Shown here: positions 36,377 to 62,992 of the stretch, in pieces
Numbering within the stretch: the first letter of the stretch is position 1
Layout: every line of letters starts with the position of its first letter
NCBI RefSeq assembly: GCF_040219335.1
Contig: NZ_JAVJSQ010000019.1
Span: 372,001 to 436,000, forward strand
DNA length: 64,000 nt
Direction: 5' to 3'
From: Gimesia sp.
GTDB taxonomy: Bacteria; Planctomycetota; Planctomycetia; Planctomycetales; Planctomycetaceae
Notes under the pieces: generated by a model
Databases searched by the model: none
Seen by the model: only the letters and a program-made list of their open reading frames with translations
Told to the model about the DNA's origin: nothing
Program-made: the position numbers and the translations under genes

Positions 36377-37255
36377 TTAGACGTCACACAGAATGACGGC
36401 TTCTTTCAGGCCCTCGTAGGGATCGCGCGTTGGAATAAATTCCTGTCCGACAAATCCCTGATAATCAATGTCGAGCAGCGCCTGCATGATTGGTGGATAA
36501 TTGATTTCCTGTTTCATATCCAGTTCGCCACGCCCCGGATTCCCGGCTGTGTGCACGTGACCGATGTAGTCCTTATGTTCGTGCAGGCGACGGATCACGT
36601 CCCCGTCCATGATCTGGACATGGTAGATATCAAACAGCAGCTTCATTCGGTCCGAACCGACCTGTTTGATGATGTCGATGCAGTAATCCGTATGATCTCC
36701 CTGATAACCGGGATGCCCTTTCATGGGATGGCTGCTGTCCCGTGAATTCAACATCTCCAGGCAGAGATTCACATTATTCTTCTCGGCGTAACCAATGATC
36801 TTTTTCAAGCCGGCAACGCAGTTCTTCGCTCCTTCATCATCACTGATACCGTCCCGCATGCCGGTGAAAGTGATCACATTTTTGACGCCGCCCGCGGCAC
36901 ATTCATCGATTCGCTTACGCAGAATTTCAATACATTGATCCCAGTTATCCGGGTTGTTGAATCCGACTTTGAATCCATGGCTGGATGCGATCGCACAGGT
37001 TAAACCATGTTTCTGAAGTGTTTTCCAGTTCTCGGCCGGCGTCAGTTCTACACTTTTGATTCCCAGCTGACTGGCGACCTGGGCCGTTTTGTCGATGTCC
37101 CAGTACTTCTTGAAGCACCAGTGAACGACTGACTGATTGATATTTCCCTTAATTGTTTTGGAAGAAGAAGCATGGGCCGCCGAAAGCCCGAGCGCCGTTG
37201 CTGCCAGCGCGCCTGATGTCTGCAGCATGTTTCGACGACTGATGGGTGAGTGCAT
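36377..37255 (-). CDS. Tat-exported hydroxypyruvate-isomerase-like TIM-barrel protein
   Basis: A 292-residue sugar-phosphate isomerase/epimerase (AP-endonuclease 2 family) with an N-terminal twin-arginine signal (SRRNMLQTSGALAATALGLSAAHA), so it would be exported folded. The barrel has VHWCFKKYWDIDKTAQVASQLGIKSVELTPAENW, then NLCLEMLNSRD, LLFDIYHVQIMDGDVI and HVHTAGNPGRGELD, matching Hyi-like proteins. Family enzymes isomerise hydroxypyruvate or related ketoses; the export form has unknown substrate. GAGG lies 6 bases before the ATG. It is 34 bases downstream of the ABC-2 permease gene and probably the last member of the long operon. Confidence 0.85.
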   Translation of the reverse strand: MHSPISRRNMLQTSGALAATALGLSAAHASSSKTIKGNINQSVVHWCFKKYWDIDKTAQVASQLGIKSVELTPAENWKTLQKHGLTCAIASSHGFKVGFNNPDNWDQCIEILRKRIDECAAGGVKNVITFTGMRDGISDDEGAKNCVAGLKKIIGYAEKNNVNLCLEMLNSRDSSHPMKGHPGYQGDHTDYCIDIIKQVGSDRMKLLFDIYHVQIMDGDVIRRLHEHKDYIGHVHTAGNPGRGELDMKQEINYPPIMQALLDIDYQGFVGQEFIPTRDPYEGLKEAVILCDV

Positions 37256-37289
37256 AAGAACCTCTGTTTCAGCAGGTAAAAGGAACAGT

Positions 37290-38843
37290 TTATTGTGAAG
37301 CCAGATGGACCAAACGTTCTTTGATCAGAAAATGAAAAGCAATAATGCCAATCATCATCATAAACGTTACCGCGACGGAAAGTCCATCCATATCAGGCGC
37401 CCCTGTTCCCAGGGAAAGTAAACTGACTGAAATGAAGAAAAAGGTGTTACCCATCCACATGATGAAGAACGAAAGGGGCAATGCCCCCCATTTAATATAG
37501 GTGGACAGAAAAGCCGTCAGATGCCAGAAAAACAGGATCTCGGTACACATCATCCAGAACCCGGGTTCGGCAAAGACCAGACCGGAATCGTAACGCATTT
37601 CTCTGAGGCTGAATAACACACCCAATGACAGATAGAAGAAGGCTGGCAGGATACTCAGTAACGATCCCAGTACTTTTGAATAAGCAATCTTCGCCATCGA
37701 CTCGGGGAGCATCGCCGTGGAGACCAGCGTTTTCCACTGGATTTCCACATGAAAGATCCGCGCTGAGATCAGGCTGATTTCAATCAGAATGACAATCAAC
37801 ATGGTCCAGAACATCGTCATTCCGATTTCCTGGATGGAATAGCTACGCGTGGTATAACCAAAAAAAGTACAGAGAGAGAACAAAGCCATTCCGTAGGCAA
37901 CAAATTTGATCAGGCTCATACCATAGCCGCCGTGGACAAAAAAGAAGTCTTTCCACATCAGTGCCTGAGACCAGGCGCGCCCCGGGGAAAACAGACTGCG
38001 TTTCTTTTTCGCGACGAGTCTGCGTTCAGGAGTAGAAGACTGTTCGAGCAACGCAAAGCGGGTGAACAGCCAGTTCGCTACGCCAAACAGGAACAGTCCA
38101 AACAACAGATTACTCCAGAACTGGTATCCCCAGGCCGTCTCGTTGAAGCCAGTCGACAGGATGGTCGTAACCTGTTTAATCACGGATGAATCGTAGATCC
38201 ATTCGAGCATTATCCCCGCGACTTTCACAGGGAAGAAATTTCCTGAGATCCAGTCCTCTTTGATGGACGCGGTCAGTAACAGTTCAAACAGAGGGACACC
38301 CAGAAAGTACGTAACCAGGCCGATAAAGACCAGGGTGGAAGCCGTCCGCGAACGTGCGCTGATCACAGAGCACAGCAGGCCCAGATTGGCAACCAGAAAC
38401 AGGAAGGCTGCCAGCGCGATATAGGCGGCCAGAACCTGCGAGAACATAACGCCGCCGAGCGTGATTGCCAATAGCGTAAACGGGAACTGAATCGAGAGCA
38501 GTAACAGGGCGGCAATCAGGCGGGGCAGCATTTTCCCCAGCAGAAGAGAGACCGGGTTGACTCCCGCCATCAATAACAGTCCGATGGTCTCTTCTTCCTT
38601 TTCTTCGGTGATCGCTGTTGCGAAGAAGCTGATGCCTGCAATCAGGATAAACACAAAATTCAGATAGACGATCTGGCCGAACAAAGCCAGACCAGCCGCC
38701 CCCATCATGGAACTGCTCATCTGGGCGGAGAAGAGGCAGAACAGAATCAGGATCGCAAACAGGAAGCGAAACAGGTGTGTGCGCATCAGACGAAAGTCGA
38801 CTGCCAATGCACGGTGAAACAGCGCAAAGGTTCCCTGAAACAT
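37290..38843 (-). CDS. ABC-2 type permease, copy B
   Basis: A 517-residue membrane protein with about 12 hydrophobic segments. An ABC-2 hallmark is seen early: TAITEEKEEETIGLLLMAGVNPVSLLLGKMLPRLIAALLLL. The first three residues of its start overlap the stop of the ATPase gene (TGATG), so translation is coupled. With the ATPase it should form an exporter or a mechanochemical ABC complex. It is the second permease of a tandem pair (the first is at 41697-43592, about 630 residues); this copy is shorter. Confidence 0.88.
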   Translation of the reverse strand: MFQGTFALFHRALAVDFRLMRTHLFRFLFAILILFCLFSAQMSSSMMGAAGLALFGQIVYLNFVFILIAGISFFATAITEEKEEETIGLLLMAGVNPVSLLLGKMLPRLIAALLLLSIQFPFTLLAITLGGVMFSQVLAAYIALAAFLFLVANLGLLCSVISARSRTASTLVFIGLVTYFLGVPLFELLLTASIKEDWISGNFFPVKVAGIMLEWIYDSSVIKQVTTILSTGFNETAWGYQFWSNLLFGLFLFGVANWLFTRFALLEQSSTPERRLVAKKKRSLFSPGRAWSQALMWKDFFFVHGGYGMSLIKFVAYGMALFSLCTFFGYTTRSYSIQEIGMTMFWTMLIVILIEISLISARIFHVEIQWKTLVSTAMLPESMAKIAYSKVLGSLLSILPAFFYLSLGVLFSLREMRYDSGLVFAEPGFWMMCTEILFFWHLTAFLSTYIKWGALPLSFFIMWMGNTFFFISVSLLSLGTGAPDMDGLSVAVTFMMMIGIIAFHFLIKERLVHLASQ

Positions 38844-39805
38844 CAGCGTACCCCCTGCTCTGTGAGATCCAGGAACGCCTGGTTCAAGTGCTTCTTGTCG
38901 CGCTGGAAGGAATCTATGACTCCATTGAGTGCGATGATTTTAGAAAGCAGCGCACTGGAATTGAGGATCGTCATATCAAATGTCACCCGCATTTCCCGTG
39001 GTTTGGGTGTCTTTTCGACATTGACGATACCGGGTTCATTCGCCAGAGCTGCGATAATCGCATCCGGTTCCGACTCAAGGGTGATCTTATAGACGGGATG
39101 TTCCTGTTCATAATTCAACAGGCCATCCATGGATCCGCTGTATTTGATCAAGCCCCGGTCGATAATGGTTACACTGTCACACAACTCAGCGAGTTCGCTG
39201 AGGATATGTGAACTGATGAAAATCGTTTTGCCCATTCGCTTCAGTTCCTGGAGAATTTCCATTAACTCAATCCGGGCACGGGGATCCAGACCGGATGCCG
39301 GTTCGTCTAGCAATAGCAGGTCGGGATCATTCACCAGCACCCGTGCCAGACTGACCCGCTGCTGCATGCCTCGTGACAGTCCGCTGATCAGCGAATCTCG
39401 GCGGCCATCCATGTCCGTTAATGTCAGCACATCATTGATGACCTGATCGCGCTGTTCCTGCTTTAAGCCATAAGCAGCCCCAAAGAAGTCCAGATATTCG
39501 AAGACCGTCATCTGTCGGTAAGTACTGAAATGATCGGGCATGAAACCGATTCGCCGTCGAATCTCTTTGACGGCGGTACGCACGTCATGCCCAAAAACAG
39601 CAACTTTGCCTGCCTGTGGTTGCAGGAGCGTACAGATGATTTTGAGCGTCGTCGTCTTGCCGGCACCATTTGGTCCTACGAACCCATGCAGGGATTGTGG
39701 GTGAACCTGGAAACTGATTCCCTGAAGTGCACGATGCCCTTTGAAGGAATGCGAGACATTCTCAATATTGATGACAGGCGGATGATTCTGTTGGTCATTT
39801 ATCAT
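38843..39805 (-). CDS. ABC-2 transporter ATPase, copy B
   Basis: A 320-residue ABC ATPase (CcmA/GldA-like). Walker A is GPNGAGKT (44-51), Q-loop region IGFMPDHFSTYRQMTVFEYLDFF, signature GLSRGMQQRVSLARVL, Walker B LLLLDEPASGLDPRAR. A C-terminal domain of about 90 residues follows (DAIIAALANEPGIVNVEKT). It closely resembles the ATPase at 43589-44545 across the whole core. It overlaps the membrane-protein gene before it by 11 bases. Confidence 0.9.
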   Translation of the reverse strand: MINDQQNHPPVINIENVSHSFKGHRALQGISFQVHPQSLHGFVGPNGAGKTTTLKIICTLLQPQAGKVAVFGHDVRTAVKEIRRRIGFMPDHFSTYRQMTVFEYLDFFGAAYGLKQEQRDQVINDVLTLTDMDGRRDSLISGLSRGMQQRVSLARVLVNDPDLLLLDEPASGLDPRARIELMEILQELKRMGKTIFISSHILSELAELCDSVTIIDRGLIKYSGSMDGLLNYEQEHPVYKITLESEPDAIIAALANEPGIVNVEKTPKPREMRVTFDMTILNSSALLSKIIALNGVIDSFQRDKKHLNQAFLDLTEQGVR

Positions 39806-41693
39806 TGGTCAGATTCTTTTTCTCGGGTAAGGCGAGATTACAGGCGAAGAGAATACGTCCCTGCTGGGTTCCCTGCACGTTGGTTTTTACTTTTAGTGTT
39901 TCCGGAATCTCGCCATACAGGAAGAGTTGCAGGCGAGATGAGTTACCCTGGTACTGTTGCAGCTTTTCGGAGCTGAGCAGACCGAGATCTTTTAATATCA
40001 AGTGCGTACGCAAGCTGTCATAGACTTGCTCAATATCTTCATCCGAATTTGCGGTCCTGAGCCGTGAAGAATACAGCAGATCCGAATCGAGGTGTCTGTT
40101 CCAGGCTGAAAGCAGTTCTCGGCTTTTGCCTAACGATAATTCGCTCGGATTTTCACCGGAAGAGGGAATCAGATCGTAAACGTATTTTCCGAGGATGAGT
40201 TGCTGGCGATTCAGGCCGGGGGGAAGTGGCGTTTCTGACTTGAGGGTCAGCTGTTTGAGAATCACGTTCCCGTTTTCCATGTCGATTTCATAATCCTGCA
40301 CAGAAAACCGGGGGGACGTATAGGGGGCTTTGATCCGGTATATCATCCGGCGGCTCGAAAAGGGAGGAATGTCGGATACGAACCTGCCGTCGTTGCCATT
40401 GAAAATCCCGCCACGAACCCGTTCGATCACTTGCGCTGTTGAAAAAATGGCACCTTCACCGTCTTCCGAAAACTGGTAATCGTCCCCCTCAGTGACGAAA
40501 CAGTTCATCCAGCAGGTCAGGTCTAGATGATTGTCGGGGAGTGGTTTCGCAAGCAGCACGCTGTTGATAGTCGTTTTCTCTCCGTAACCGCGTTTCCCGA
40601 TGGTCCAGAAGATAATGCTGAATACGCTAACGGTACAGAGTAGAAACAGGAGGGAATTGCGATACCGCATCATATTTTTTCGATGCTGAAACAGATAACA
40701 GCCGGGAAAGATCAGAAATATATAGAATAACGTCATAATATAAATTACCGCCCAGTTATGAGTGGGGCGTGTCAGTTCGGATAACTGGTAAAGAAATCCA
40801 GAGTTGATGTCCCCATACTGGTAAGGATCATAGTTCTCTCCGCTGGACTGGGATTCATTCGCCAGGGGAGCAGCAGTATAAATGCCTAACGACTTTGCCT
40901 CGCTGTCGCGGACGGCCTGAATTCGTTCATCAAGAGTCGTCGCTTTCAGTTGATTCAACTTGGTAGCGTGGCGAATCACCAGTCCCGCACCGACGCGAAA
41001 ATGATCGAAGGGGGCATTCAGGGGGGCTAAGTTCGATGTAAATTTCAAACTCTCGCCACTGGGGTCGGGAAGCAGATGCAGAATGCCCCCCTGCTCCAGC
41101 CATTCCATGAACGAGTCTCGACGGGCCACATCCCAGCGTGGCACATGACCCAGAATGACTTCATCCAATGAATCCGTCGCGGTCACAAACGGAGGAAACA
41201 GGTCTTCCGGATATTTCTTAAAGCTGGCTCCCCCCTGAAGTAGACCATCGCTCCCGGCGATGATAATCCGAAGAGGCCCGGTTGTGGTGACGGTACCTCC
41301 GGTTCGTTTGACGCTGCGATATTGTACAAAACCGGGGCCCCAGTTCAGACTCCAGTCTTCATCCTGACCATCGACGATATAAGGATAGAACTGGACCCAC
41401 TGGGAGCTGTAAGGCGGCAGATAGACTTTTTTATACAGTGGCGCGCCGACTTTTGTTCCATTAAATTGCTGACGATTCAACTGGACTGCTTCGTCGAAGA
41501 CCTCAGGAGTATTATTGCTTAAACGCAGAGAGAGCGGGACAAATTTTCCCCGAACCGGTTGGTTATTGAATCCCCAGATGGTCTCCTCGACATCAATCGC
41601 ATAGACAGCGGGAGGCAACATCAACAACATGAAGATCAGCAGCAGCTGGTTAATGATTTTGTAGTTTAGATACGTTCGAAACATCCTCGTCAC
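39795..41693 (-). CDS. Gld-G-like membrane protein, copy B
   Basis: A 632-residue envelope protein with a GTG start (GGAAGGA 6 bases upstream). A signal peptide (LLLIFMLLMLPPAVYA) is followed by a beta-rich external region, a segment with amidotransferase-like pattern (RDSFMEWLEQGGILHLLPDPSG), then two membrane helices (WAVIYIMTLFYIFLIFPGCYLF and SLLFLLCTVSVFSIIFWTI, about residues 315-370), and a C-terminal external domain. It has the same architecture as the 730-residue protein at 44558-46750. Such proteins accompany ABC-2 modules of the GldF/GldG type; the exact function is unknown. Confidence 0.75.
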   Translation of the reverse strand: MTRMFRTYLNYKIINQLLLIFMLLMLPPAVYAIDVEETIWGFNNQPVRGKFVPLSLRLSNNTPEVFDEAVQLNRQQFNGTKVGAPLYKKVYLPPYSSQWVQFYPYIVDGQDEDWSLNWGPGFVQYRSVKRTGGTVTTTGPLRIIIAGSDGLLQGGASFKKYPEDLFPPFVTATDSLDEVILGHVPRWDVARRDSFMEWLEQGGILHLLPDPSGESLKFTSNLAPLNAPFDHFRVGAGLVIRHATKLNQLKATTLDERIQAVRDSEAKSLGIYTAAPLANESQSSGENYDPYQYGDINSGFLYQLSELTRPTHNWAVIYIMTLFYIFLIFPGCYLFQHRKNMMRYRNSLLFLLCTVSVFSIIFWTIGKRGYGEKTTINSVLLAKPLPDNHLDLTCWMNCFVTEGDDYQFSEDGEGAIFSTAQVIERVRGGIFNGNDGRFVSDIPPFSSRRMIYRIKAPYTSPRFSVQDYEIDMENGNVILKQLTLKSETPLPPGLNRQQLILGKYVYDLIPSSGENPSELSLGKSRELLSAWNRHLDSDLLYSSRLRTANSDEDIEQVYDSLRTHLILKDLGLLSSEKLQQYQGNSSRLQLFLYGEIPETLKVKTNVQGTQQGRILFACNLALPEKKNLTNDK

Positions 41694-41696
41694 ATT

Positions 41697-43592
41697 CTAT
41701 CCTTCCAGGGGAGAACTCAATACTGGTTTCGAATTACTCGGTGGTGCGGGAGGAACATAATCCTGTTCAGGCGTGTCCCCCAACCGCCCCAGTCTCTCAT
41801 CAATGTGCCCGAGACACAAGTGGCGAAACCAGAAACATAGGCAGCCATAGATCAGGGAATTAAGGATGAGAGGAATCCAGATCGATCCGAAATCATGAAA
41901 TTCAGCAATTTCATTCACCACGATAAAAGAAGCAGGTCCCAGTAGAACGCCGTAGATCACTGAATCTTCATTCATTGAGGGATTTAATACAAAAAGGGGA
42001 AACGCCAGGATGAACGGGGACAGGCACCAGAGAATGACGCCCCCCAGAGCCGTCAGGATGGCTTTCGTCTGGGATTTGATTTTCATCCCGATCCAGCAGA
42101 ACAGATAAATCAACATCGGCAGGTAGATCGAAATCGTCAGCATCGAACCTGTAAAATAGGCGAACCAGCTTGTTGAGTAACTGGAGCGGCGGTAAGACGA
42201 ATAAGAATAGCCGGCCAGGTGGTACTCCATTTTCCACCAGGTTTCAAACAACACGATGGTCAACAGGGGAATCAACAGCACCAGGCAGAGTCGTCTGACG
42301 CCGGCAATCTTCTGTCTGAGAATTTCTCTCCCTGAGAGAGGCGCCGTGAGCAGGACATCGAGTGTTTCGTGAGAACGCTCCCCTGCAATCAGACTGGTCG
42401 CTGAAACCGCGAGCAGCAGCGTTGTCAGGATCCAGACACCCCATAGCAACATGACCGCCCCGGGAACTACCGGTTCCGGACTACCGGTGGCAATCAAGAT
42501 ACACAAAAACAGAATGGGGACTTCCAGCGCGACCAGGATGCGAAACAGATAACGAAACGTGCCCAGTGATTTCTTGGATGTTTCCCGCCAGGCGATGGGA
42601 TCATTCTCGGGCAGCTTCACATCATCCTGGACCAGTACGATACCCCGTGTCACGCGATTATCATTAATTTTACTGAACTGCGAGTCCAGTTTTTTGAACA
42701 TATTTAACAGTAGATTTCGCGGCGTCAGGAAGGCTCGACGCACGAGAAAATAATGGGCCATAATCAGAAACATCAGGGTGACAGTCAGCATGGGAATACT
42801 CAAAATGAGTGGTCCCAGGATTGCGGAGATACCGGTCGTACGGGAGCACAGATCAAAGAGGTAGGGGCCGAACAGGAACAGGTTCAATTCAGACGATCGC
42901 CCCCAATTCCCCAGCAGATTACTCAAAGCCGGTATATTTTGCAGCACCTGTGAAAAAACGTGAAACAGTTCCCGGTAATAAAACAGATTCAGTTCGTAGA
43001 CGATGATCGGCCCAAACAGCATGAAAAAACCAAACACATAGGTCGCAATAAAGGCACCAACCGTACTGCGAAAGAAACTGGAGCAGAGAACGCCTAAAGC
43101 GGCGACCTGCAGCATCGTCATGAGCAGAAACCAGATCCCGCTGATAAACATCGCCGGTGAAACCCCACCCAGGGCATAGGCGAAAGCCAGAATTGGAAGC
43201 CCCAGTGTCAGGAATGTGAGCATCGTAATTAAACGCCCCAGGTATTTTTCGAGAATGATGGTCCCGGGACTCAGTCGAGTAATCAGTAACAGCCCCAGAC
43301 TGTTGCGCTCTTTTTCGTGGGTGATCACGCTACAGGAAATCGCGGGCAGGAAGAGATAAATGGCGATAAACTGCAGATAGATCATCGCCTCGAAGATATC
43401 GCGGCCCCGCCCCAGAATGGCCATCGGGTTATTTTGCAGTCCCGACATCAGATCAATGTAAATAAAACCGACAAATCCGAGGAACAGCAGCGCATAAATG
43501 GTGCGGATGATGTAAGTTCTACGGCGGTTGGCCAGTTCTGTCAGCTCTTTGGAGAGCAGCGGAAGCCCGAGTTGGATTCCTTTGAATTTCAT
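41697..43592 (-). CDS. ABC-2 type permease, copy A
   Basis: A 631-residue membrane protein with about 12 to 14 hydrophobic segments. It has the ABC-2 pattern twice: TSVITHEKERNSLGLLLITRLSPGTIILEKYLGRLITML-like near residue 90-125, and TSLIAGERSHETLDVLLTAPLSGREILRQKIAGVRRL near 405-440. The double motif suggests two fused half-permeases, unlike the shorter copy B. It overlaps the ATPase gene by ATGA (4 bases). The C-terminal tail is Pro-rich (PEQDYVPPAPPSNSKP). Confidence 0.87.
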   Translation of the reverse strand: MKFKGIQLGLPLLSKELTELANRRRTYIIRTIYALLFLGFVGFIYIDLMSGLQNNPMAILGRGRDIFEAMIYLQFIAIYLFLPAISCSVITHEKERNSLGLLLITRLSPGTIILEKYLGRLITMLTFLTLGLPILAFAYALGGVSPAMFISGIWFLLMTMLQVAALGVLCSSFFRSTVGAFIATYVFGFFMLFGPIIVYELNLFYYRELFHVFSQVLQNIPALSNLLGNWGRSSELNLFLFGPYLFDLCSRTTGISAILGPLILSIPMLTVTLMFLIMAHYFLVRRAFLTPRNLLLNMFKKLDSQFSKINDNRVTRGIVLVQDDVKLPENDPIAWRETSKKSLGTFRYLFRILVALEVPILFLCILIATGSPEPVVPGAVMLLWGVWILTTLLLAVSATSLIAGERSHETLDVLLTAPLSGREILRQKIAGVRRLCLVLLIPLLTIVLFETWWKMEYHLAGYSYSSYRRSSYSTSWFAYFTGSMLTISIYLPMLIYLFCWIGMKIKSQTKAILTALGGVILWCLSPFILAFPLFVLNPSMNEDSVIYGVLLGPASFIVVNEIAEFHDFGSIWIPLILNSLIYGCLCFWFRHLCLGHIDERLGRLGDTPEQDYVPPAPPSNSKPVLSSPLEG

Positions 43593-44545
43593 GCCGTCTT
43601 GCCTTCCGTCAACTTCATGAATACCGTTTCCATATCCATGGCTTCCGCCTGGAACATGCGGATCCGGGCCCCCGTCGCTGCCAGTCTGGCGTGCAGTTCA
43701 TCGACGGCCATCTGGTCTTCCTGCAGTTGAATTGCCAGGCGATCCGCCTGCACGGAAACGGACTTGACCCCTTCGAATTGTTCGATCTGTTGACAGATCC
43801 CGTTCATCTCACCGACAATCTGCACGTGAATGACTCGGCTGAGCTCAAGCCGTTTATAAATCTGATCCAGTGATCCCTGGGTGACAAACTGACCTGCCTC
43901 AATAATGCCGATACTGGTACAAAGCTGCGATAGTTCGTGCAGAATATGGCTGGAAATGATGATCGTCTTTCCCATCTCTTTGAGGGCCACCAGAAGTTCA
44001 CGGACCTCAATTCGCGCCCGCGGATCCAGGCCGCTGGCTGGTTCATCCAGCAGCAGCAGATCCGGATCGTGCAGCAGGACGCGTGCCAGGGCCAGTCGCT
44101 GTTTCATTCCGCGCGACAGTGAGTCAACAGGAGAGTCAATCTTTTCTGTCAGATCGGTCAATTCCAGCACGTCGTCAACAATTGCTTTGCGTCGACTGCG
44201 ATTAATGCGATAGGCGGCGGCGAAAAAGTGCAGATACTCGCGGGCGGTCAGGTCTTCATACACGCCGAAGAAATCGGGCATGTAGCCGATCATCTCGCGG
44301 ATCAGATGCGGTGCTTTATGCACAGAAACTCCGTTGATTTTGACTGCGTCGCATTCATACTCCCGTTGCAGCGTCGCCAGAACTTTGATCGTGGATGACT
44401 TCCCGGCACCGTTGGGGCCGATGAAACCGAAGACTTCGCCTTTGGGAATCGTAAACGAAATCCCTTTGACAGCTTCATATTTACCGTAGCGGACCCACAG
44501 ATTTTTCACTTCCACCATTGGAGGTTGTATGCTCATAGTATTCAA
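43589..44545 (-). CDS. ABC-2 transporter ATPase, copy A
   Basis: A 318-residue ABC ATPase. Walker A GPNGAGKS (43-50), signature LSRGMKQRLALARVL, Walker B LLLLDEPASGLDPRARIE. A C-terminal domain of about 95 residues includes CQQIEQFEGVKSVSVQADRLAIQLQ. The start is TTG at 44545 with GAGGTG 4 bases before it; an in-frame ATG at 44536 lacks a well-placed binding site, so the start is uncertain by 3 codons. It is the paralogue of copy B. Confidence 0.9.
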   Translation of the reverse strand: MNTMSIQPPMVEVKNLWVRYGKYEAVKGISFTIPKGEVFGFIGPNGAGKSSTIKVLATLQREYECDAVKINGVSVHKAPHLIREMIGYMPDFFGVYEDLTAREYLHFFAAAYRINRSRRKAIVDDVLELTDLTEKIDSPVDSLSRGMKQRLALARVLLHDPDLLLLDEPASGLDPRARIEVRELLVALKEMGKTIIISSHILHELSQLCTSIGIIEAGQFVTQGSLDQIYKRLELSRVIHVQIVGEMNGICQQIEQFEGVKSVSVQADRLAIQLQEDQMAVDELHARLAATGARIRMFQAEAMDMETVFMKLTEGKTA

Positions 44546-49569: not shown

Positions 49570-50586
<1,017 letters not shown>

Positions 50587-50616
50587 ATTATTCTCCACGG
50601 TTGAAAACCTGTCTGA

Positions 50617-55508: not shown

Positions 55509-56963
55509 TCAGGCAGGCACTCGATAGCTGGCGATCCAGAATCGTTTCACAATGGGAACAAGTGCCAGACAGAGACAGACCGGCACCAGAAAACAGAAAA
55601 AGGTGATCGCGGACAACATTGCGTTCTGTCCATAATGCATGAGTCCGTATAAACGAACAGCTGACGTCATCGTGCTGCCGGGAGCGAGAATCGAGCTGAT
55701 CGTGACGTCCCAGTAAGCCCAGAAAGCCAGCAGGACCACGGCCCAGAATTGCATTCTTCCCGAGACGGCCCAGAGCAATTCGCCCCCCTGCCCGGCTTGA
55801 GAGGGCCGCGGGGACTGACGAAGTAACTGTGCCAGAAACAGTCCGGCATGCTGTTCTCGTTTGAGGAGCATCAGCCGCAGGAACAGGGCGCGGGGAAACA
55901 GAAACAACACAAACCCGAGCAGCACCGGAATCGGAGTACCATACATGACTGAGCCGGCGCGGGTGAGAAACAGGGATGCCAGCCCAAGCGCGAGGATCAG
56001 CGCACCACACAAACCAGGTAGACAGCACAAGAGGCCCATCAGTCGGGTGAATACGGTGGAATCCTGTTTTAAAAAGAATGAGGCCAGTCCCCAGGCGGCA
56101 ATACCGGTTGTCGCTGCGTAGGCCAGCGCCCAGGCGCACTCCTGTAAAATGCTGATGAGTTGATACTGATTCTGGAGCAGATTCAGCAGTGATTTTAAAC
56201 TCCCACCACTGATTAAGAGAAAGGGAACCAGCACGACCAGGGCAAAAGCGGCCCCCAGGTAACACCAGTCCCAGAGCTTCGCTTTCTGAAGAGTGGGAGC
56301 TGGCGTTTCAGTCGCTTCCACTTTTCTGGTCTCTCTCTGAAACCGCTGCAACAGGCTGAAGACCCCCAGCAGGATGACGACTTCAATCGCGAGAGGCCCC
56401 AGCAGAAAAGAGAGTGTTTCCTGCACGGGAACGCCGCCCGCCTGCGCATCAAAGATCCAGACGGTCCAGGAATCGCGGTACATCAGCGAGGCCATTTCAA
56501 ATTCCTGAAAGCTCAACAGAAATAACAGCGTCCAGACAGGGATCGACAATCGCAGGGAATTCCAGAGAAAAAAACTGGCCCGGGTTTTCAGGCTGGCCAG
56601 TCGCGAACCCGGCGTCCGAAAGACGCGTCGGATGAAATCCGCTTCGGGAGAGATTAACGCTCCCCCTGCCATACTGAAACAGAGTATGCCCACAGGGACC
56701 ACTTTCATTAAAACCAGAGTTGAGTATGTCAGTTCGAGCAGGGCAGGATACTGCACGAATCTGACAGAAATCAGAGACCAGGCATATCCCACCAGGAGTT
56801 CAGGAACAAATAACGGTGATAAAATCAGAATTAACAGGAACCAGGCACGAGATTCAAACGCTTTCCGTGTCGGCGGGGTCAACCGCCGGGCTAAAAAGAC
56901 TCCGATGAATGAAATACATAAACTGCGCAACACGGTCACGCCACAGGCAGTGGCCAGGCTCAT
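55509..56963 (-). CDS. Double ABC permease of Fe/anion importer type
   Basis: A 484-residue membrane protein with about 12 helices, the two halves of which are each ABC permease-like, as in FbpB/ThiP. It lies between the binding protein (ATGA overlap) and the ATPase fusion (18-base gap), as expected for a FbpABC-type importer. Hydrophobic runs include SLCISFIGVFLARRL, ILILSPLFVPELLVGYAWSLI, and FLLSFQEFEMASLMY, where the first EAA-type loop is seen. Substrate cannot be read; Fe(III), thiamine or another small oxyanion are possible. Confidence 0.82.
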   Translation of the reverse strand: MSLATACGVTVLRSLCISFIGVFLARRLTPPTRKAFESRAWFLLILILSPLFVPELLVGYAWSLISVRFVQYPALLELTYSTLVLMKVVPVGILCFSMAGGALISPEADFIRRVFRTPGSRLASLKTRASFFLWNSLRLSIPVWTLLFLLSFQEFEMASLMYRDSWTVWIFDAQAGGVPVQETLSFLLGPLAIEVVILLGVFSLLQRFQRETRKVEATETPAPTLQKAKLWDWCYLGAAFALVVLVPFLLISGGSLKSLLNLLQNQYQLISILQECAWALAYAATTGIAAWGLASFFLKQDSTVFTRLMGLLCCLPGLCGALILALGLASLFLTRAGSVMYGTPIPVLLGFVLFLFPRALFLRLMLLKREQHAGLFLAQLLRQSPRPSQAGQGGELLWAVSGRMQFWAVVLLAFWAYWDVTISSILAPGSTMTSAVRLYGLMHYGQNAMLSAITFFCFLVPVCLCLALVPIVKRFWIASYRVPA

Positions 56964-58003
56964 TTCAAGTACTCCGTTTTGAGCCAGTCCAGCGTCTGCT
57001 CTCTTTGTTTGACCAGATTCGTCAGGGGATATGCTTTTTCGATCTCAGACCGATACTGTTTTACTTCTTCTGGAACCTGCTCCCAGTCGACCGGCCCCAG
57101 GGGAATCTGGCGTGACTGCGAGCGGGCCAGTTCCAGTTCAGCCCGCTCCGAGAGCAGAAAATCGACCAGTTTCTCGGCCTGCTCCCGCTTTTGAGTTCCT
57201 TTAATGATCGCCACGCTGTTGGGAATCAGAATGACTTTGTCCTCGATCGTCACGGGGACGGCAGCTACCGGCTGTTGCTCATCGACGGCGACAAAATAGT
57301 CATCCGTGTCTGTATAGCCCAGTACGCAGGCACCGCCGGCGACAAGGTTCTTGACTTGAGAATTTCCGGTCGTGACCTGAATCCCCCGTTTGAGTTGTTC
57401 CGCATACCAGGCTTTGAGTTGATCCAGTCCCCAGACATCACAGAGGATGGTGAAATGAGTGAGCGTCGTCCCGTACAGGGGTTTGGCAATCGCGACCTGG
57501 TCCAACGGCCCGGCCAGAACCTTCTCGATGGCGGCGGAATCCGCCTGCAGCTGATTCGTATTGGTAATAAAAACCCGCAAACGGGCTGCGAAACCGGTCC
57601 AGCAACCTTCCGGATCTTTGAATGACTCAGGGATTCGTTCGTATCCGGAGCCTTTATAGCTTTCCAGCAGTCCACGGGATTTCAGATCCGCGGTGCCCAG
57701 GGTCTGATTATTCCAGAAGACATCGCACTGGGGATGCTCCTGTTCCCGTATGATCAGATTCGTCAGGCCGAGAGATTTAGTCGCTTCGGTATCGAACCGG
57801 GGTTCGACGGCAATTCCCGTCTCCGCCATGAATTCGTTGAGTATTTTTTCCGAAAAGATAGAGTCATGTGCGCAGTACACAACCAATGGATCTGCCTGCT
57901 TCTGAACATAGAAGACGACTCCAATTCCCAACAGGGCAAGCAGCAGGATGATAATTAAGGTAAGCCAGCCGGGAGCACCCTGGGGCCTGATTTGTTCATT
58001 CAT
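56960..58003 (-). CDS. Membrane-anchored Fe/anion-type substrate-binding protein
   Basis: A 347-residue binding protein of the FbpA/AfuA-like family: DPLVVYCAHDSIFSEKILNEFMAETGIAVEPRFD (38-71) and DVFWNNQTLGTADLKSRGLLESYK. It has an N-terminal hydrophobic segment (13-32) without a lipobox or clear cleavage site, so it looks permanently membrane-anchored rather than a free periplasmic protein. The Tyr pair of classic Fe-binding FbpA cannot be assigned by eye, so an iron substrate is only one option. The downstream permease starts by ATGA overlap. The upstream coiled-coil gene likewise ends at its start. Confidence 0.82.
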   Translation of the reverse strand: MNEQIRPQGAPGWLTLIIILLLALLGIGVVFYVQKQADPLVVYCAHDSIFSEKILNEFMAETGIAVEPRFDTEATKSLGLTNLIIREQEHPQCDVFWNNQTLGTADLKSRGLLESYKGSGYERIPESFKDPEGCWTGFAARLRVFITNTNQLQADSAAIEKVLAGPLDQVAIAKPLYGTTLTHFTILCDVWGLDQLKAWYAEQLKRGIQVTTGNSQVKNLVAGGACVLGYTDTDDYFVAVDEQQPVAAVPVTIEDKVILIPNSVAIIKGTQKREQAEKLVDFLLSERAELELARSQSRQIPLGPVDWEQVPEEVKQYRSEIEKAYPLTNLVKQREQTLDWLKTEYLK

Positions 58004-59625
58004 TTCTGAGGTGTATTCTCGTCAGTTTTTTTCTCGAGTGAGTTGAAATACTTCTTGATTCCGTCGTGATACCCGGGCGGGATCTGCTCCTGCATGATGG
58101 CTTCGCTCATGCCCTGCTTGAGATCCGTGACCAGCTTGTTGTAGTTCTTCTTAGCTTCGCCACTGTCGCTGAGCCCCTTGGATTTGAAGGAAAGCAGGAC
58201 CTTACCAGCGGTGATGGCCGACTTGGACTTTTCGGTTTTAAAACCTTTATCACCCGTGTCGTCTTCATCGACCTTGCCTCCTCCGCCCTGTCCCTCATTG
58301 CCGGTCCCTTCACCGGGCATTTCTCCCCCCATCATTTCTGCATAGAGTTCTTCGTAGTCTTCGAGGGTCATGCAGTTTTCGCAGGCTTCACCGTCGAGGC
58401 CTGATTTGTCGTTTGCCTTTTTAGCCATCTGTAGAACTTTGAGCGCTTCTTCCAGCTTTTTCATGTCTTTGGCCGACTGCGCCACTTCTTTGAGTTCCAT
58501 TTTTGCCAGGTCCATGGACTCCATGGCTTCTTTGAAAGCCTCTTCGGGAGAAAGCCCCTTGGACTGCGCCATCTGCATCTGTTTCATGGCTCGCTTCAGC
58601 GCTGCAGCCATCGGCTTGGAAGAAGTCTGTTCCCGGGCGAATGACTCCATCTCTTTGAGTTTCTTCTGGATTTCATTCTGCAGTTTTTCCCGTTTGACCG
58701 GGTCTTTTTCTTTCATCAGCCGTTGCAGCTGATCTTTCAATTCATCCATCTCTTTGGTGAGTGACTGGGTCGAACCTTCCTGCAGCTCCTTAGACCACTT
58801 CTTCATGCCGTCGTCTTTCGACATGCCACCAAATTTCTGGGCCTGGTCTGCCTTCATCATCATGCTTTTCATATTCTCTTCGGCGCGCTGCCGCCACTTG
58901 CCTCCCAGGGACTTCTGGTGACCAGCCAGGGTCTTGGCATTTTCCTGTTTTTTGCCGGGGGTCATCTTGCGAAAGTCCGATTTCAGATTCTCTACCGCCA
59001 GTTTGACATCTTTAGACTCTTCGTCGCCTGCACCGTTATCTTTGTTCTTCAACTCAGCCATGCGGGCCTTTGTTGCTTTTTTCTCTTTCTGGAACTCCTT
59101 GACCTTTTCCTGTTCAATTTCCGCGGCCTGGACTTCACCGAAGGGGTCAAGTTGCGGCGCGTATTGCAGTGTCAGAAACAGAACCAGCGAGGAGGCACAG
59201 ACCCAGCCCACCCGTTTCGCCCAGGCAAATTCCACAACCTGGAATGGTTTGATTTTCTGTGCCTGCTTTTCTGCGTCTTGCGCGACCAGGGGCTTATAAT
59301 TGCCGACAGCCTGTTCCAGCATCGTCACCGTCAGAAACAGATCCTTGGTTCCCTGTCGCTGATCGATCAGGCGGGCTGCCTGTTCGCGATCGGGCCGGCG
59401 AAACAGAATCGCTGACAGCACCAGCGTACCGATGGCGACACTGCTGATGGACTCCAGTGGGAACCAGCCGGTCCAGTAGCCCGTCAACCGGCTGAAGAGC
59501 ATCAGCGCCAGGTACAAGGATGCAGAGATTACAAATGACACAAAGAGAGCACGCCCCCAGACCGCCAGAGCCAGGCGGCGTTCTACGCGTTCGATCAGTC
59601 GATTTGATTTTGTCATTTGTTCCAT
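58000..59625 (-). CDS. Coiled-coil membrane protein, unknown function
   Basis: A 541-residue protein. Two N-terminal helices (about residues 24-44 and 56-75), a third at about 137-155, then a long Lys/Glu/Met-rich coiled coil (about 175-410; for example QEGSTQSLTKEMDELKDQLQRLMKEKDPVKREKLQNEIQKKLKEME). After CENCMTLEDYEELYAEMMGGEMPG there is a Gly-rich linker and a C-terminal helical region with LSDSGEAKKNYNKLVTDLKQGMSEAIMQEQIPPGYHDGIKKYFNSLEKK. The layout resembles DUF4175-like proteins; the family is not certain. AAGGAG is 7 bases before the ATG. It may act as a scaffold or tether for the importer and VWA module encoded after it. Confidence 0.78.
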   Translation of the reverse strand: MEQMTKSNRLIERVERRLALAVWGRALFVSFVISASLYLALMLFSRLTGYWTGWFPLESISSVAIGTLVLSAILFRRPDREQAARLIDQRQGTKDLFLTVTMLEQAVGNYKPLVAQDAEKQAQKIKPFQVVEFAWAKRVGWVCASSLVLFLTLQYAPQLDPFGEVQAAEIEQEKVKEFQKEKKATKARMAELKNKDNGAGDEESKDVKLAVENLKSDFRKMTPGKKQENAKTLAGHQKSLGGKWRQRAEENMKSMMMKADQAQKFGGMSKDDGMKKWSKELQEGSTQSLTKEMDELKDQLQRLMKEKDPVKREKLQNEIQKKLKEMESFAREQTSSKPMAAALKRAMKQMQMAQSKGLSPEEAFKEAMESMDLAKMELKEVAQSAKDMKKLEEALKVLQMAKKANDKSGLDGEACENCMTLEDYEELYAEMMGGEMPGEGTGNEGQGGGGKVDEDDTGDKGFKTEKSKSAITAGKVLLSFKSKGLSDSGEAKKNYNKLVTDLKQGMSEAIMQEQIPPGYHDGIKKYFNSLEKKTDENTPQK

Positions 59626-59677: not shown

Positions 59678-61357
59678 CTAATCCGATTTCGGGGAGAGGG
59701 CCTCCGCCTCATCGGCGCTGATCAGGTGGTCCTGATTCTGGTCCAGTCGTTTAAATGTGGCTGCATCGAACAGAAATTCCCGTTCCGAAATGTCACCATC
59801 CCGGTTACGATCCATGCGTTGAAACCAGCGCGGTCCAGAAATGGTACGTGGGATTGTACTGTTCTGGTTCATTGCCATGGAATCCATCCGTGGATCAAAC
59901 TGAAACAATTGCGGTTTCCCGAGTTCAAATGTCAGTTTGAAATGTCCTCGTAATTCTGCAGGATCCAGTGACTGGTCCCGGTTTTTATCATACTCCCGCA
60001 CTCGCTGGAGACTGTTTTTGAGTTCGCGAGGGCTCAAGCGTCGATCCAGATCGGCGTCGAGAATTTCAAACAGCGATTTGCCATCGTTGCTGACTGTCAT
60101 GACGACCTGGTTCTGTACGGAAGACGTTTTCTGAATCAGGTAGTCGGTCAGCTCTTCCCTGTGCAGCATTTCATCCTGATTCTGGTCCGCTTTCTGATAG
60201 TCGGCACCGGGGATGTTCAACTGCATGAATTCGTTTGGAGACAGATAACCATTTCTATCACTGTCGACAACGCGAAAACGAGTCTGGTAGAAACGGACAT
60301 TGTCGGCCAGCATGTGCCGCGAACTCTTGACGCGAAATTCGAGTTGCAGACTGTCGAGCCGTAACTGCAGTCGCGAACGGGACGGAGATTCAACCTCGGT
60401 GACGCGGGGTGTCTGCTGACTGACGAATTTGAGCGTGGGCCTGAATGCTTTCTGTCGGGGGAGCGCCATTTCCAGTTGCAGCTCACTTGCGGGATGATGC
60501 AGCCAGGCCGATATCTCCTCTCGATTCAAATAACCATCCGCGTCCTGATCGAAATCCTGAATCTGGGATGTCCCACTGCTGGTGGAACTGAAACAGGCCA
60601 GAGCCAGGGCATCCTGCTGGGGATTGGCGTGTTCAACATATTTTTTCAACAGTTCGTCAACCGCCTGGCGAATCGAGCGATCGTTGTCCAACTGCCGGAA
60701 GGGGGTCTCGGTTTCTCCCTGACCTCCTCCAACCACGGTTTGAGTCTGATTCGCATTAAACGGGCGAAGTTCCGCCAGATTCAGCACTTCATCTTCATCA
60801 CGATCAAACTGTGTCAACGCGCGGGAGCTGGCTTCGAATTCCGCATCGCTCACGGAACCATCGCCGTTGTAATCCAGTTTGCGAAAGAGTTCGATCACCT
60901 GGGACGATCTTGTAGGAGCCCCCGCGATGCGAAACGCAGAACCCTGGGCCCGGTGAATATAAGTCGCAAATTCACCGATGCTCAACTTCTGGTCCCGGGG
61001 CGCTACATCCAGTAAATGCAGCCGCTCTGCCGGGCTCCCCTGATCAAACAGGCGGATACCGAATGCCGGGACGTTTTCCATCTCGGTCTGATCAATGAAC
61101 TGATCCTCGTTACGGTCCAGCGAGGTAAACAGGCGTTGGATGTAATCAGTCGTCGTCGCGCAGAAATCAGCTTCATCAACCTGAATGTTGACTGCAATCA
61201 CGACGGGGGCAGAAGGTGCCAAAAGTAGTATTCGCTGGGCCGTCGCTGCCTGCGGCGCGGAATCCTGAACTTCTCCTGCCAAACTGATGCGCAACGGGAC
61301 CAGTCCCAGCAGAGCTGCGGTCAGGTAGCAACAGATTGTCCTGGCGGCTGCGGTCAT
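59678..61357 (-). CDS. Secreted protein with many EF-hand loops
   Basis: A 559-residue exported protein. A signal peptide (ICCYLTAALLGLVPL, then SLA) is followed by about ten EF-hand-like loops in groups: SLDRNEDQFIDQTEM, KLDYNGDGSVSDAEF, FDRDEDEVLNLAEL, FDQDADGYLNREEI, VDSDRNGYLSPNEF, ADQNQDEMLHREEL, LDADLDRRLSPREL, YDKNRDQSLDPAEL, MDRNRDGDISEREF and LDQNQDHLISADEA. Most keep Asp at positions 1, 3, 5 and Glu at 12, so they should bind calcium. A beta-rich middle part (about 300-360) separates the groups. It is 3 bases downstream of the DUF1549 gene. Confidence 0.9.
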   Translation of the reverse strand: MTAAARTICCYLTAALLGLVPLRISLAGEVQDSAPQAATAQRILLLAPSAPVVIAVNIQVDEADFCATTTDYIQRLFTSLDRNEDQFIDQTEMENVPAFGIRLFDQGSPAERLHLLDVAPRDQKLSIGEFATYIHRAQGSAFRIAGAPTRSSQVIELFRKLDYNGDGSVSDAEFEASSRALTQFDRDEDEVLNLAELRPFNANQTQTVVGGGQGETETPFRQLDNDRSIRQAVDELLKKYVEHANPQQDALALACFSSTSSGTSQIQDFDQDADGYLNREEISAWLHHPASELQLEMALPRQKAFRPTLKFVSQQTPRVTEVESPSRSRLQLRLDSLQLEFRVKSSRHMLADNVRFYQTRFRVVDSDRNGYLSPNEFMQLNIPGADYQKADQNQDEMLHREELTDYLIQKTSSVQNQVVMTVSNDGKSLFEILDADLDRRLSPRELKNSLQRVREYDKNRDQSLDPAELRGHFKLTFELGKPQLFQFDPRMDSMAMNQNSTIPRTISGPRWFQRMDRNRDGDISEREFLFDAATFKRLDQNQDHLISADEAEALSPKSD

Positions 61358-61360
61358 GTG

Positions 61361-62992
61361 TTAATGATTCAATAAAAACTCGCTACTGTTTAACAGAGCC
61401 CAGAACAGATTCGCATAGGCGTCCGTCTGGTCTTCACTGGCTGTGATATACGATTTCAGTCTGTTTTGTTCGGCCGATGTGGGAGGCCGGGAAAGCGTGG
61501 ACAGATAAAAGGCTTCGATTTTCTGTTCGACCGATTGACCGGGGAAATCTACTATCGCGGTAAACACATCGGACTCTTCCAGACTGGTCGCGTTGGTGAT
61601 AAAGGTACCGTTCATCAGCGCCAGAGCCTGCAATATTGTAGCCCGGGGCTCTAGTTGGTTTTCGGCCTCCGATTGAAACAGTTCGTAAATTTCCGTCTGG
61701 GGAGAATTTGTGCCTCCTGCGACCAATCGCGGATCCGTTTCTGTCGTCTGGCGGAAGAACCCCGTGGCCTGGACCAGATTGGCAAAGATCTGTTCTGAGG
61801 TCAGGCCCCGTGTCGGCATTTTTCCATACCATTGTGCACGAGACTGACTGGGATCGGTCTGGCGACTGGTGAGCTGATAGGTCTCAGAATTCGTGATTTC
61901 GCGAATCAGATATTTCAGATCGTAATCATGTTGCTGGAAGGCACGCGCCATGGCATCCAGCAGTTCCGGATGCGAGGCGGGATTGGTCGCAGAAAAATCA
62001 TCGACCGGGTCCACGATGCCTCGACCAAAAAACAGACTCCAGATTCGATTGACCGACGCTTTGGCGAAATAGGGGTTCTGTGAAGATGTGATCCATTCCG
62101 ATAGCCGTTCTCGGGGGCCACGCTGATTCTGTTCCCAGTCGATCTCTTTTCCGTTCAGAAGACTGGCTTCGACCAGTCGATTTGTATCGGGAATTTTGAT
62201 GGCGGGTTTGCCGGTGACTTCTCTCAGGCTGAATCCGGTAATCAAATTATTCTGCTGGGACTGATCGAAATTGGCAAAGAAGGCTGCAAACTTCCAGAAC
62301 TGCTCCTGCTTCCAGGTATCGAAGGGATGATCATGGCACTGGGCACATTCAATCCGGACTCCCAGAAAGGCACGGGAAGTACTGGCAGCCAGGCTCTCTG
62401 GTTTGAGCTGCTTAGCCACATAGAAAGCCCGCGGAGTGGGTTCCATTGTCTCTGCCTGTGCTGCGTCCTGATCAAAGGACGCTCCAATGATGGCACGTGC
62501 CAGAGCAGCGTAGGAAGTGTCGTTTCTCAGTTGAGTTCGCAGCCAGGCTTCGAATTCCGGCACCTGTTGGCGTGCAAATGGATCTGTGCCAGCTTCGGGA
62601 ATCAAGATCTCCCGCCAAAGACTGGTGAAGTGGACCACGAACCCCGGACTGGCCAATAAGCGTTCAATCAACTGAGACCGTTTATCTGGAGTGGTATCTG
62701 CCAGAAACTGGCGTACTTCCGCTACCGGTGGAATTTTGCCGGACAGATCCAGGTAGACCCGCCTCATGAATTCCGCATCCGAAGCACAGGGGGCGATCTG
62801 AACGTGTTCGCGCTGGTGAGCCTGCCTGATAAACTGATCGATCTGACCGGCCAGCCGCTGTGGTTCGCTGTCGGTAGCAGACTTTTCCGCGGCCATGATA
62901 CTCGACTGCATGCAGATGAGCAGTAGTCCTGCCAGTAGCAGACTGCCCACCTGAGTACCTCGGTTGTGCTGATTTTCGCTGGCACTTAACAC
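61361..62992 (-). CDS. DUF1549/DUF1553 planctomycete protein
   Basis: A 543-residue exported protein with a GTG start (AAGGA 8 bases upstream). A signal peptide (VGSLLLAGLLLICM) is followed by DUF1549 (DAEFMRRVYLDLSGKIPPVAEVRQFLADTTPDKRSQLIERLLASPGF) with the conserved ECAQCHDHPFDTW motif, and DUF1553 (LSEWITSSQNPYFAKASVNRIWSLFFGRGIVDPVDDFSATNPASHPELLDAMARAF). The cytochrome-like domain often found in front of DUF1549 is missing, so it is a short form. These proteins are abundant in planctomycetes; their function is not established. It is first in the long operon. Confidence 0.92.
   Translation of the reverse strand: MLSASENQHNRGTQVGSLLLAGLLLICMQSSIMAAEKSATDSEPQRLAGQIDQFIRQAHQREHVQIAPCASDAEFMRRVYLDLSGKIPPVAEVRQFLADTTPDKRSQLIERLLASPGFVVHFTSLWREILIPEAGTDPFARQQVPEFEAWLRTQLRNDTSYAALARAIIGASFDQDAAQAETMEPTPRAFYVAKQLKPESLAASTSRAFLGVRIECAQCHDHPFDTWKQEQFWKFAAFFANFDQSQQNNLITGFSLREVTGKPAIKIPDTNRLVEASLLNGKEIDWEQNQRGPRERLSEWITSSQNPYFAKASVNRIWSLFFGRGIVDPVDDFSATNPASHPELLDAMARAFQQHDYDLKYLIREITNSETYQLTSRQTDPSQSRAQWYGKMPTRGLTSEQIFANLVQATGFFRQTTETDPRLVAGGTNSPQTEIYELFQSEAENQLEPRATILQALALMNGTFITNATSLEESDVFTAIVDFPGQSVEQKIEAFYLSTLSRPPTSAEQNRLKSYITASEDQTDAYANLFWALLNSSEFLLNH

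Follow-up and report, generated by a model that had tools for sequence, protein, structure and literature searches.

The minus strand of a planctomycete genome (Gimesia sp., family Planctomycetaceae, assembly GCF_040219335.1, 7.93 Mb) carries a run of 17 open reading frames (ORFs), here numbered g1 to g17, from position 62992 down to position 36377 of the window, the 64,000-nucleotide stretch that we analysed (contig NZ_JAVJSQ010000019.1, positions 372,001 to 436,000). The genes of this cluster very probably form one functional system. Its core, about g3-g16, joins an importer with a solute-binding protein (SBP, g4), a permease (g5) and an ATPase (g6) to an NHL beta-propeller, a membrane protein with a von Willebrand factor type A (VWA) domain (g7), MoxR, DUF58 and BatA proteins (g8, g9, g10) and two ABC-2 modules (g11-g13 and g14-g16). 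The initial annotation of this stretch had suggested that the entire run is one envelope machine; conserved gene order and co-occurrence across genomes support this for the core, and g1, g2 and g17 are less widespread and fall outside it. The most unusual feature of the cluster, absent from that annotation, is the in-frame fusion of the importer ATPase, a lipobox and the NHL propeller in g6.

Gene order was compared with g7 as the anchor (G000 is the genome of the window itself, other G-numbers denote compared genomes and L-numbers compared loci). A g7 match at E 1e-20 was found in 165 of the 170 genomes of the family, and an orthologue, with the cut set at E 1e-110, in 133. Windows were taken from the own genome and from 20 others picked for long contigs, mostly of different genera; those of the 20 others are 40 kb long (one 35.6 kb). 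Order and strand of g1-g17 are kept in all four Gimesia windows (own, G024, G025, G036), and the loss of this order in close relatives, which had been named as evidence against a single system, was not observed. G150, from another genus, has g1-g16 in order, with one g13 and two g16 in addition; G095 carries g2-g16, G014 and G023 carry g3-g16, and a single ABC-2 module (g14-g16) is seen in G003, G080 and G149. In fourteen of the 21 family windows, g7 is preceded by g4 or g5 at a distance of a few kb at most and followed by MoxR and DUF58. The gene g17 adjoins the cluster in the four Gimesia windows only, and g1 lies near it in few non-Gimesia windows, such as that of G150.

The order SBP-permease-ATPase-NHL-VWA-MoxR-DUF58-BatA recurs in other Planctomycetota, in Verrucomicrobiota and in Lentisphaerota. 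Eighty named loci were compared, and order is shown for those of at least 12 kb. The arrangement g3-g4-g5-g6-g7 followed by g8-g13, with ATPase and NHL in one frame, was found in Chthoniobacter flavus Ellin428 (L184), in a representative of Verrucomicrobia subdivision 3 (L190) and in Lentisphaerae (L175); thus, 11 genes are in conserved order in L184, a Verrucomicrobiota isolate. The verrucomicrobial locus L207 has the same order as L184, but its ATPase and NHL propeller are separate genes. The first gene of this series, g3 (58000..59625, minus strand, as all features of the run), encodes a core protein with two transmembrane (TM) segments and a coiled coil, whose match to DUF4175 is weak and below the cut-off; it is present in loci of all three phyla.

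All sets pooled contain 126 distinct g7 loci, the main group being those where g7 scores at least 1200 bits. In 41 of the 59 distinct loci of this group with both flanks present, g4 or g5 lies on one side and MoxR with DUF58 on the other; among the remaining 18, some neighbour is retained everywhere except in L178 and L208. Counts for individual neighbours in the main group are 65/72 for NHL, 62/72 for the g6 ATPase, 59/71 for MoxR, 53/71 each for DUF58 and BatA, 49/66 for g5, 48/66 for g4, 40/66 for g3, 39/66 for g11 and 36/66 for g12. Among the 27 lower-scoring loci, NHL was found in 20/25, g3 in 9/25, g4 in 7/25, g5 and the g6 ATPase in 2/25 each, and MoxR, DUF58 and BatA in 7/7 each. In a sample of the phylum, 236 of 393 genomes have a g7 match at E 1e-60, those listed from outside the family being mostly 30-40% identical. 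We searched 30 non-family windows with profiles built from the family. All ten long ones have MoxR, DUF58 and BatA after g7, eight have NHL ahead of it (not G319 and G226), and five have the SBP (G352, G441, G490, G187, G366). The other twenty, of 20 kb, cover only some 4 kb past g7; MoxR was found in 16 of them and NHL upstream in 18 (not G370 and G479), at a large distance in the case of G188 and G474.

Co-occurrence across genomes also supports one functional system. It was scored in the 134 of 170 family genomes that are at least 90% complete, with orthologue cut-offs of E 1e-110 for g7, E 1e-70 for g10 and E 1e-15 for g4, excluding a 27%-identity match of G090. All three genes are present in 101 genomes and none in 28. 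Only five genomes are partial (G039, G130 and G131 without g10, G046 and G058 without g4), all of them assemblies of at least 470 contigs, and no genome among the 134 has g4 or g10 without g7. In all 170 genomes, g7 and g10 occur together in 126 and are both absent from 35, with 7 and 2 discordant cases. Fisher's test gives P < 1e-22 for co-occurrence, kinship being disregarded. The independence of the absences rests on three within-genus contrasts: three genera hold both states, and the absent genomes there lack g4, g7 and g10 alike (G078 against G075-G077; G099 and G100 against G098; G137 against the rest of the genus labelled g51, where G139, 89% complete, has no g4 match). Fourteen genomes of Verrucomicrobiota and Lentisphaerota chosen for g7 all have g4, and 13 have a g10 orthologue, the g10 match in the genome of L192 reaching only 1.5e-21; these fourteen include L178, L188, L208, L211 and L212, which have no other core orthologue beside g7.

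The possibility that any strong MoxR locus of the genome looks alike was rejected, as g10 has no match in the 11 stretches around the 12 other strong MoxR genes, and g7 has only a single partial match there, of 44 bits, in L091. Altogether G000 has 13 strong MoxR genes, and a DUF58 match resembling g9 occurs in 8 of these 11 stretches.

The central proteins keep their functional motifs. The gene g7 (50617..53652) encodes a membrane protein of 1011 residues with Pfam VWA and GATase1_like domains. MoxR, an AAA+ ATPase encoded by g8 (49570..50598; AAA_3, 210.8 bits), has the P-loop GVPGLGKT, every residue of which is found in at least 105 of 107 sequences. The soluble DUF58 protein g9 (48658..49563; Pfam, 109 bits) contains a VWA-like DxSxS motif with D96, S98 and S100 conserved in 81/81, and the BatA/VWA membrane protein g10 (46778..48670; BatA 43.8 bits with a cut-off of 25.9, and VWA_2) has D102, S104 and S106 conserved in 70/70. 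A diverged second copy of g7 (627-846 bits) immediately follows the first and precedes MoxR in L156, L160 and L162, two of which are titled Schlesneria and one Planctomycetota bacterium. L210 and L213, from metagenome-assembled genomes titled Candidatus Kuenenia stuttgartiensis, encode g7 proteins 50 and 54% identical to the Gimesia query, although these titles may be mis-assigned.

With AAA_3, DUF58 and BatA all above the Pfam cut-offs, the series MoxR, DUF58 and BatA/VWA of the Bat type is present; none of the 17 genes has a Pfam match to BatD at E 0.01. The cluster resembles the MoxR-DUF58-Bat operons of Bacteroides, Leptospira and Borrelia, where MoxR, DUF58 and BatA-type VWA proteins are grouped. 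We know of no Bat operon with an SBP importer, an NHL lipoprotein or ABC-2 modules. In Borrelia, the VWA domain of BB0173 is placed on the periplasmic side (PMC5700661, in excerpt). The MoxR-vWA beta-propeller ternary systems also combine MoxR, vWA and a propeller, and in the excerpt of PMC7159879 it is the vWA protein that carries the propeller, and the P-loop of MoxR often reads GXXXTAKS. Membership in these systems was rejected, since here the NHL propeller is on g6, g7 and g10 have no propeller match, and the P-loop is GVPGLGKT; g8 scores 38.9 bits against PF20030 (cut-off 27), yet 210.8 against AAA_3.

The second half of the core consists of two related modules. In module 1, g11 (44558..46750) is followed by the ABC-2 type ATPase g12 (43589..44545; Pfam and NCBIfam) and the permease g13 (41697..43592; ABC2_membrane_2, 65 bits); in module 2, the membrane protein g14 (39795..41693) is followed by the ATPase g15 (38843..39805; Pfam and NCBIfam) and the permease g16 (37290..38843; ABC2_membrane_3, 29.7 bits with a cut-off of 31.6). 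Profiles of the two modules match each other (E 1.9e-95 for g12 and g15, E 1.5e-20 for g13 and g16), and hhalign relates g14 to g11 over roughly the first 200 aligned residues of the latter, with a probability of 92 and E 6.5e-7. Neither g11 nor g14 has a Pfam or NCBIfam match at E 0.01. The model of g11 (pLDDT 82.3, pTM 0.84) suggests an Ig-like N-terminal domain, an alpha/beta domain, a TM hairpin and a C-terminal domain. DUF4350 scores 15.5 bits in g11 of the window, with a cut-off of 30.4, and matches weakly, at E <=0.5, in 13 of 25 members (best 5.8e-5). The initial annotation had called these ABC modules Gld-like, and an ABC-2 ATPase and permease beside a possibly GldG- or DUF4350-like protein indeed recall GldA, GldF and GldG. 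However, the scores are far below the NCBIfam equivalog cut-offs, and the Gld assignment was rejected: GldA (TIGR03522, cut-off 402.6 bits) gives 214.5 for g12 and 212.6 for g15, GldF (TIGR03518, cut-off 288.5) gives 36.5 for g13, and g16 has no match. A fold search with g11 was dominated by the Ig-like domain; GldG is not among the matches listed, which excludes nothing.

One possibility is that the cluster encodes a secretion or membrane-remodelling complex similar to the one predicted for the archaeal DUF4350-vWA-MoxR operons (PMC5898192, in excerpt), with the importer-like proteins serving as sensors or structural parts. We consider this unlikely, although it is the strongest of the alternatives. 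The archaeal model, as excerpted in PMC5898192, provides the precedent, and the shared elements are a MoxR ATPase, Ig-like domains, vWA proteins and a membrane protein that may be related to DUF4350; in the cluster it is favoured by the weak DUF4350 matches and the Ig-like domain of g11, by the duplicated ABC-2 module, and by five loci that have the SBP and a permease fused to NHL with no importer ATPase in the window. On the other hand, the windows of G352 and G490 contain g3-g10 but yielded no ABC-2 gene, and the GldA and GldF cut-offs are not reached. An SBP importer, an NHL propeller and ABC-2 genes are not named in the excerpt of PMC5898192, and the DUF4350 similarity seen here is weak.

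The single ORF g6 (53649..55490; 613 residues) encodes, by Pfam, an importer ATPase with a TOBE domain and an NHL propeller, with a lipobox between them. After the TOBE domain it reads ...RISIRLLILFCCLLLCGGC and then enters the propeller, so that one reading frame leads from an FbpC-like ATPase into a lipoprotein signal. This signal is a short hydrophobic stretch with a lipobox at residues 316-328 (54507..54545), ending in Cys328 (54507-54509), which is invariant in 27 of 27 aligned sequences; the NHL half thus has the hydrophobic stretch followed by a lipobox Cys that is expected of a lipoprotein. The stretch of some 12 residues presumably suits a signal peptide more than a permanent TM helix. 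The AlphaFold model of g6 has a mean pLDDT of 89.8 and a pTM of 0.52, so its domain placement is unreliable; residues 310-315 form a strand and 317-325 a short helix, and the interior confidence is lowest at ~321-331, around Cys328. Foldseek matched this model to the NHL domain of Drosophila Thin (TM-score 0.85 by target length) and to importer ATPases including Thermus FbpBC and FbpC.

Fusion could be scored in 107 loci, 19 further ones being too short. ATPase and NHL form one ORF in 52 of them, and in five loci the NHL propeller is instead fused in frame to the permease (L114:14331-16973 from G366, L118, L119, L120, L123), in genomes outside the class of the window. These five genomes have the SBP, with no importer ATPase in the 20-40 kb examined; their fused permeases and the separate one of G458 are homologous to g5 (hhalign 98.8%, E 6.7e-17). 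A search of plasmid records with g6 gave at least five matches, and the five listed each span at least two annotated genes. Among the papers listed in literature searches, no title or opening of an abstract describes the cluster or the ATPase-NHL fusion, an absence that is weak, as the literature covered was mostly without subscription papers.

The common frame could reflect translational coupling only, with two proteins made through an internal start, an explanation to which we give perhaps one chance in a few. Separate ATPase and NHL genes do exist, and 44 of 59 distinct ABC fusions have some start codon 15-35 codons before the Cys, a Shine-Dalgarno-like match accompanying it in 11. However, g6 of the window contains no ATG, GTG or TTG in this interval, nor do 14 other fusions (15/59 in all), and both halves of the window protein are thus most likely made as one chain. 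Given the invariance of the Cys, lipidation is its best explanation and cleavage would then be expected; we infer that g6 is a candidate polyprotein cut by signal peptidase II.

The SBP of the importer belongs to a known fold class. The membrane-anchored SBP g4 (56960..58003; Pfam SBP) is of the FbpA/AfuA fold class, with a profile match of E 1e-21 to the PDB entry 7w3w and a further match to AfuA. Its T-D-x-D-D motif is invariant, with D232, D234 and D235 in 64/64. In ferric-binding proteins an adjacent Tyr pair ligates Fe(III), and D234-D235 align on these Tyr-Tyr columns; in AfuA they align on a His-Asp pair. The latter is taken to be His205-Asp206 (the chain index is off by two relative to the numbering of the paper), mutation of which abolishes glucose-6-phosphate binding (PMC4546632, in excerpt). 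An invariant Asp pair in place of both suggests a conserved pocket that is neither of the known ferric nor of the known sugar-phosphate type. The permease g5 (55509..56963) has nine hydrophobic peaks and a weak NCBIfam permease match far below the cut-off. The ATPase half of g6 keeps Walker A, the signature Ser-x-Gly, the Walker B Asp-Glu and the H-loop His (at least 69/70 or 89/90).

The earlier label of an Fe-type importer thus holds for the fold class of the SBP and appears doubtful for the ligand, as the ferric Tyr pair is absent. The SBP and ATPase folds do resemble FbpABC and AfuABC, with PDB matches to FbpA, AfuA, FbpC and Thermus FbpBC. The differences are the Asp pair, the fusion of the ATPase to a lipoprotein propeller and the MoxR/VWA setting. 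Assignment to FbpABC was rejected, the ferric ATPase model NF008513 (cut-off 496 bits) giving 89.7 for g6 and the Tyr pair being absent, as was a 2-aminoethylphosphonate importer (SBP model TIGR03261, cut-off 392.75 bits, with 38.6 for g4).

A metal or cofactor insertion machine would make use of these proteins in another way: the importer part would deliver or sense the metal or cofactor, and MoxR, DUF58 and VWA proteins would open an apo-enzyme of the envelope for its insertion, as NorQ/NorD do at the Fe(B) site of nitric oxide reductase. In its favour are this MoxR/VWA precedent (PMC9976466, in excerpt), the FbpA-fold SBP with its invariant Asp-Asp in the ligand-pair columns, and the EF-hand gene g2 heading the cluster in several genera. 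However, no conserved client enzyme was seen in the cluster, no metal can be assigned from the sequence alone, and the ABC-2 modules would be superfluous. This explanation seems rather improbable.

Several observations weigh against a single system. In seven of the 21 family windows g7 does not lie between the importer and MoxR with DUF58 (G005, G007, G011, G089, G091, G134, G148): G005, G007 and G091 have g4-g7 (G007 also g3) without g8-g16, G089 has g7-g8 alone, and in these four genomes the BatA orthologue is far away. In G148, 5.4 kb are inserted between g5 and g6. Outside the family, no MoxR was found in the few kb after g7 in G275, G401, G460 and G479, and the SBP was seen in just seven of the twenty 20-kb windows (G318, G343, G307, G460, G501, G474, G248). 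Five genomes from other families of the same class (G388, G431, G353, G427, G457) have NHL, g7 and MoxR without SBP or importer ATPase in the window, and also keep DUF58 and BatA where the window extends that far; the MoxR/VWA core can thus exist with no importer next to it. In 18 of the 107 scorable loci, neighbouring but separate genes encode ATPase and NHL, and in a further 32 there is either NHL without an ATPase within 3 kb (17) or no NHL within 3.5 kb (15). The co-occurrence counts are uncorrected for kinship. Finally, the Q-loop Gln is kept in only 21 of 70 ATPases and replaced in 49, by His in the window (55221-55241), and the coupling of ATP to transport may thus be unusual; around it W84, P86, G90, L91 and W92 are conserved in 70/70. 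From the distant windows it is possible that an older NHL-VWA-MoxR-DUF58-BatA core acquired the importer and ABC-2 modules later; loss is the other explanation.

Separate machines under shared regulation would comprise an importer for nutrients, a MoxR/VWA chaperone of general use and two exporters, all required in one and the same condition. They would agree with the physical splitting of g4-g7 from g8-g16 in some genera and with the insertion in G148, but co-regulation alone is insufficient to explain why g4, g7 and g10 are absent together and why NHL shares a frame with the importer ATPase in some loci and with the permease in others. This is the least probable of the functional alternatives. 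Chance or artefact was rejected, as the fused g6 frame is kept in four of four Gimesia windows and in other phyla.

The observations support the view that the MoxR, DUF58 and BatA proteins belong together with the membrane VWA protein, the NHL propeller and the genes of the importer, and the support for one machine is genetic (order and co-occurrence) rather than biochemical. The full reading, to which we would give an even chance, is that g3-g16 are one functionally coupled inner-membrane system of PVC (Planctomycetes, Verrucomicrobia, Chlamydiae) bacteria for ligand-dependent envelope assembly. The following division of labour among g4-g16 is more tentative. On the outer side of the membrane, the anchored binding protein g4 would capture a polar ligand (an amine, a polyol or a metal ion), with g5 and the g6 ATPase as its partners. 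The NHL half of g6 would be made on the same chain; its short internal signal would receive a lipid, signal peptidase II would cut it, and the lipoprotein propeller so released would remain near the importer and dock g7. Inside, the MoxR ring g8 and its DUF58 partner g9 would do ATP-driven work, relayed through g7 and BatA g10, whose VWA domains would hold the client outside. The two modules of g11-like and ABC-2 proteins (g11-g13 and g14-g16) would move the product or remodel the envelope, and the net role would be to assemble or mature a protein complex of the envelope in a ligand-dependent way. Such a function is favoured by analogy with NorQ/NorD, an earlier case of a MoxR/VWA pair that uses ATP to work on a client (PMC9976466, in excerpt), and with the archaeal prediction (PMC5898192, in excerpt). 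NorQ/NorD similarly act on a membrane-protein client; they differ in being a two-protein chaperone with a known client, and an importer or NHL partner is not mentioned in the excerpt of PMC9976466.

The remaining genes of the run are accessory or semi-core. The gene g1 (61361..62992) encodes a secreted protein with DUF1549 (PSCyt2) and DUF1553 (PSD1), at 153.2 and 151.1 bits in Pfam, and g2 (59678..61357) a secreted protein with multiple Pfam EF-hands, a semi-core gene that precedes g3 in several other genera. The last gene, g17 (36377..37255), encodes a protein of the TIM-barrel isomerase family (AP_endonuc_2, 106.9 bits) with a Tat-signal-like start (TAT_signal 21.6, cut-off 22.7). The domain calls made for the run from the letters alone (DUF1549/1553, EF-hand, SBP, ABC ATPases, VWA, MoxR, DUF58, BatA, ABC-2) agree with Pfam.

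The 17 genes are as tightly packed as had been described, with successive gaps from g1 to g17 of 3, 52, -4, -4, 18, -4, 18, 6, -13, 27, 12, -4, 3, -11, -1 and 34 bases. ATGA overlaps were indeed found at 58003/58000, 56963/56960, 53652/53649 and 43592/43589, and a one-base TGATG overlap at 38843. A fifth ATGA overlap, at 48661/48658, exists if g10 begins at its fourth codon (MGTM...) and not if the longest ORF, starting at 48670, is taken. A strong terminator-like hairpin (36312-36353) lies at the end of the run as claimed; it is bidirectional, with 19 pairs on the plus strand and 13 on the minus strand, and is shared with a convergent gene of the isocitrate/isopropylmalate dehydrogenase family (35212-36285, plus strand). 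However, it is not the first, as minus-strand terminator-like matches occur already within the run, all in coding sequence by coordinate. With both strands pooled, such matches number 32, against 20.4 (standard deviation 5.4) in shuffled sequences, and 20 against 11.8 (standard deviation 3.2) in a second scan. This excess and a gap of 276 bases ahead of g17 in G024 leave a single 26.6-kb transcript only putative.

A bolder proposal, which we regard as doubtful, is that the cluster encodes a new envelope machine of PVC bacteria in which the importer itself is a subunit of the MoxR/VWA complex, its ATPase, or its permease in some planctomycetes outside the class of the window, being made as a polyprotein with the propeller and separated from it by signal peptidase II. 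If so, importer and propeller would form at a fixed stoichiometry and place, and a lipoprotein signal within an ABC ATPase chain, if cut, would put this peptidase to an unusual use. MoxR/VWA modules are widespread, and few have a known client. MoxR is among the least studied AAA+ families (PMC9976466, in excerpt). A module tied to an importer with an invariant pocket would allow the ligand to be sought and the client to be followed from the ligand. The main texts of the Planctopirus and Verrucomicrobium essentiality papers (PMC10632474, PMC12283558) contain none of the terms von Willebrand, VWA and ABC transporter. Gene deletions have been reported in Planctopirus limnophila (PMC10632474, in excerpt), and in this genetically workable species the cluster would offer a conserved target in a group of bacteria with unusual envelopes.

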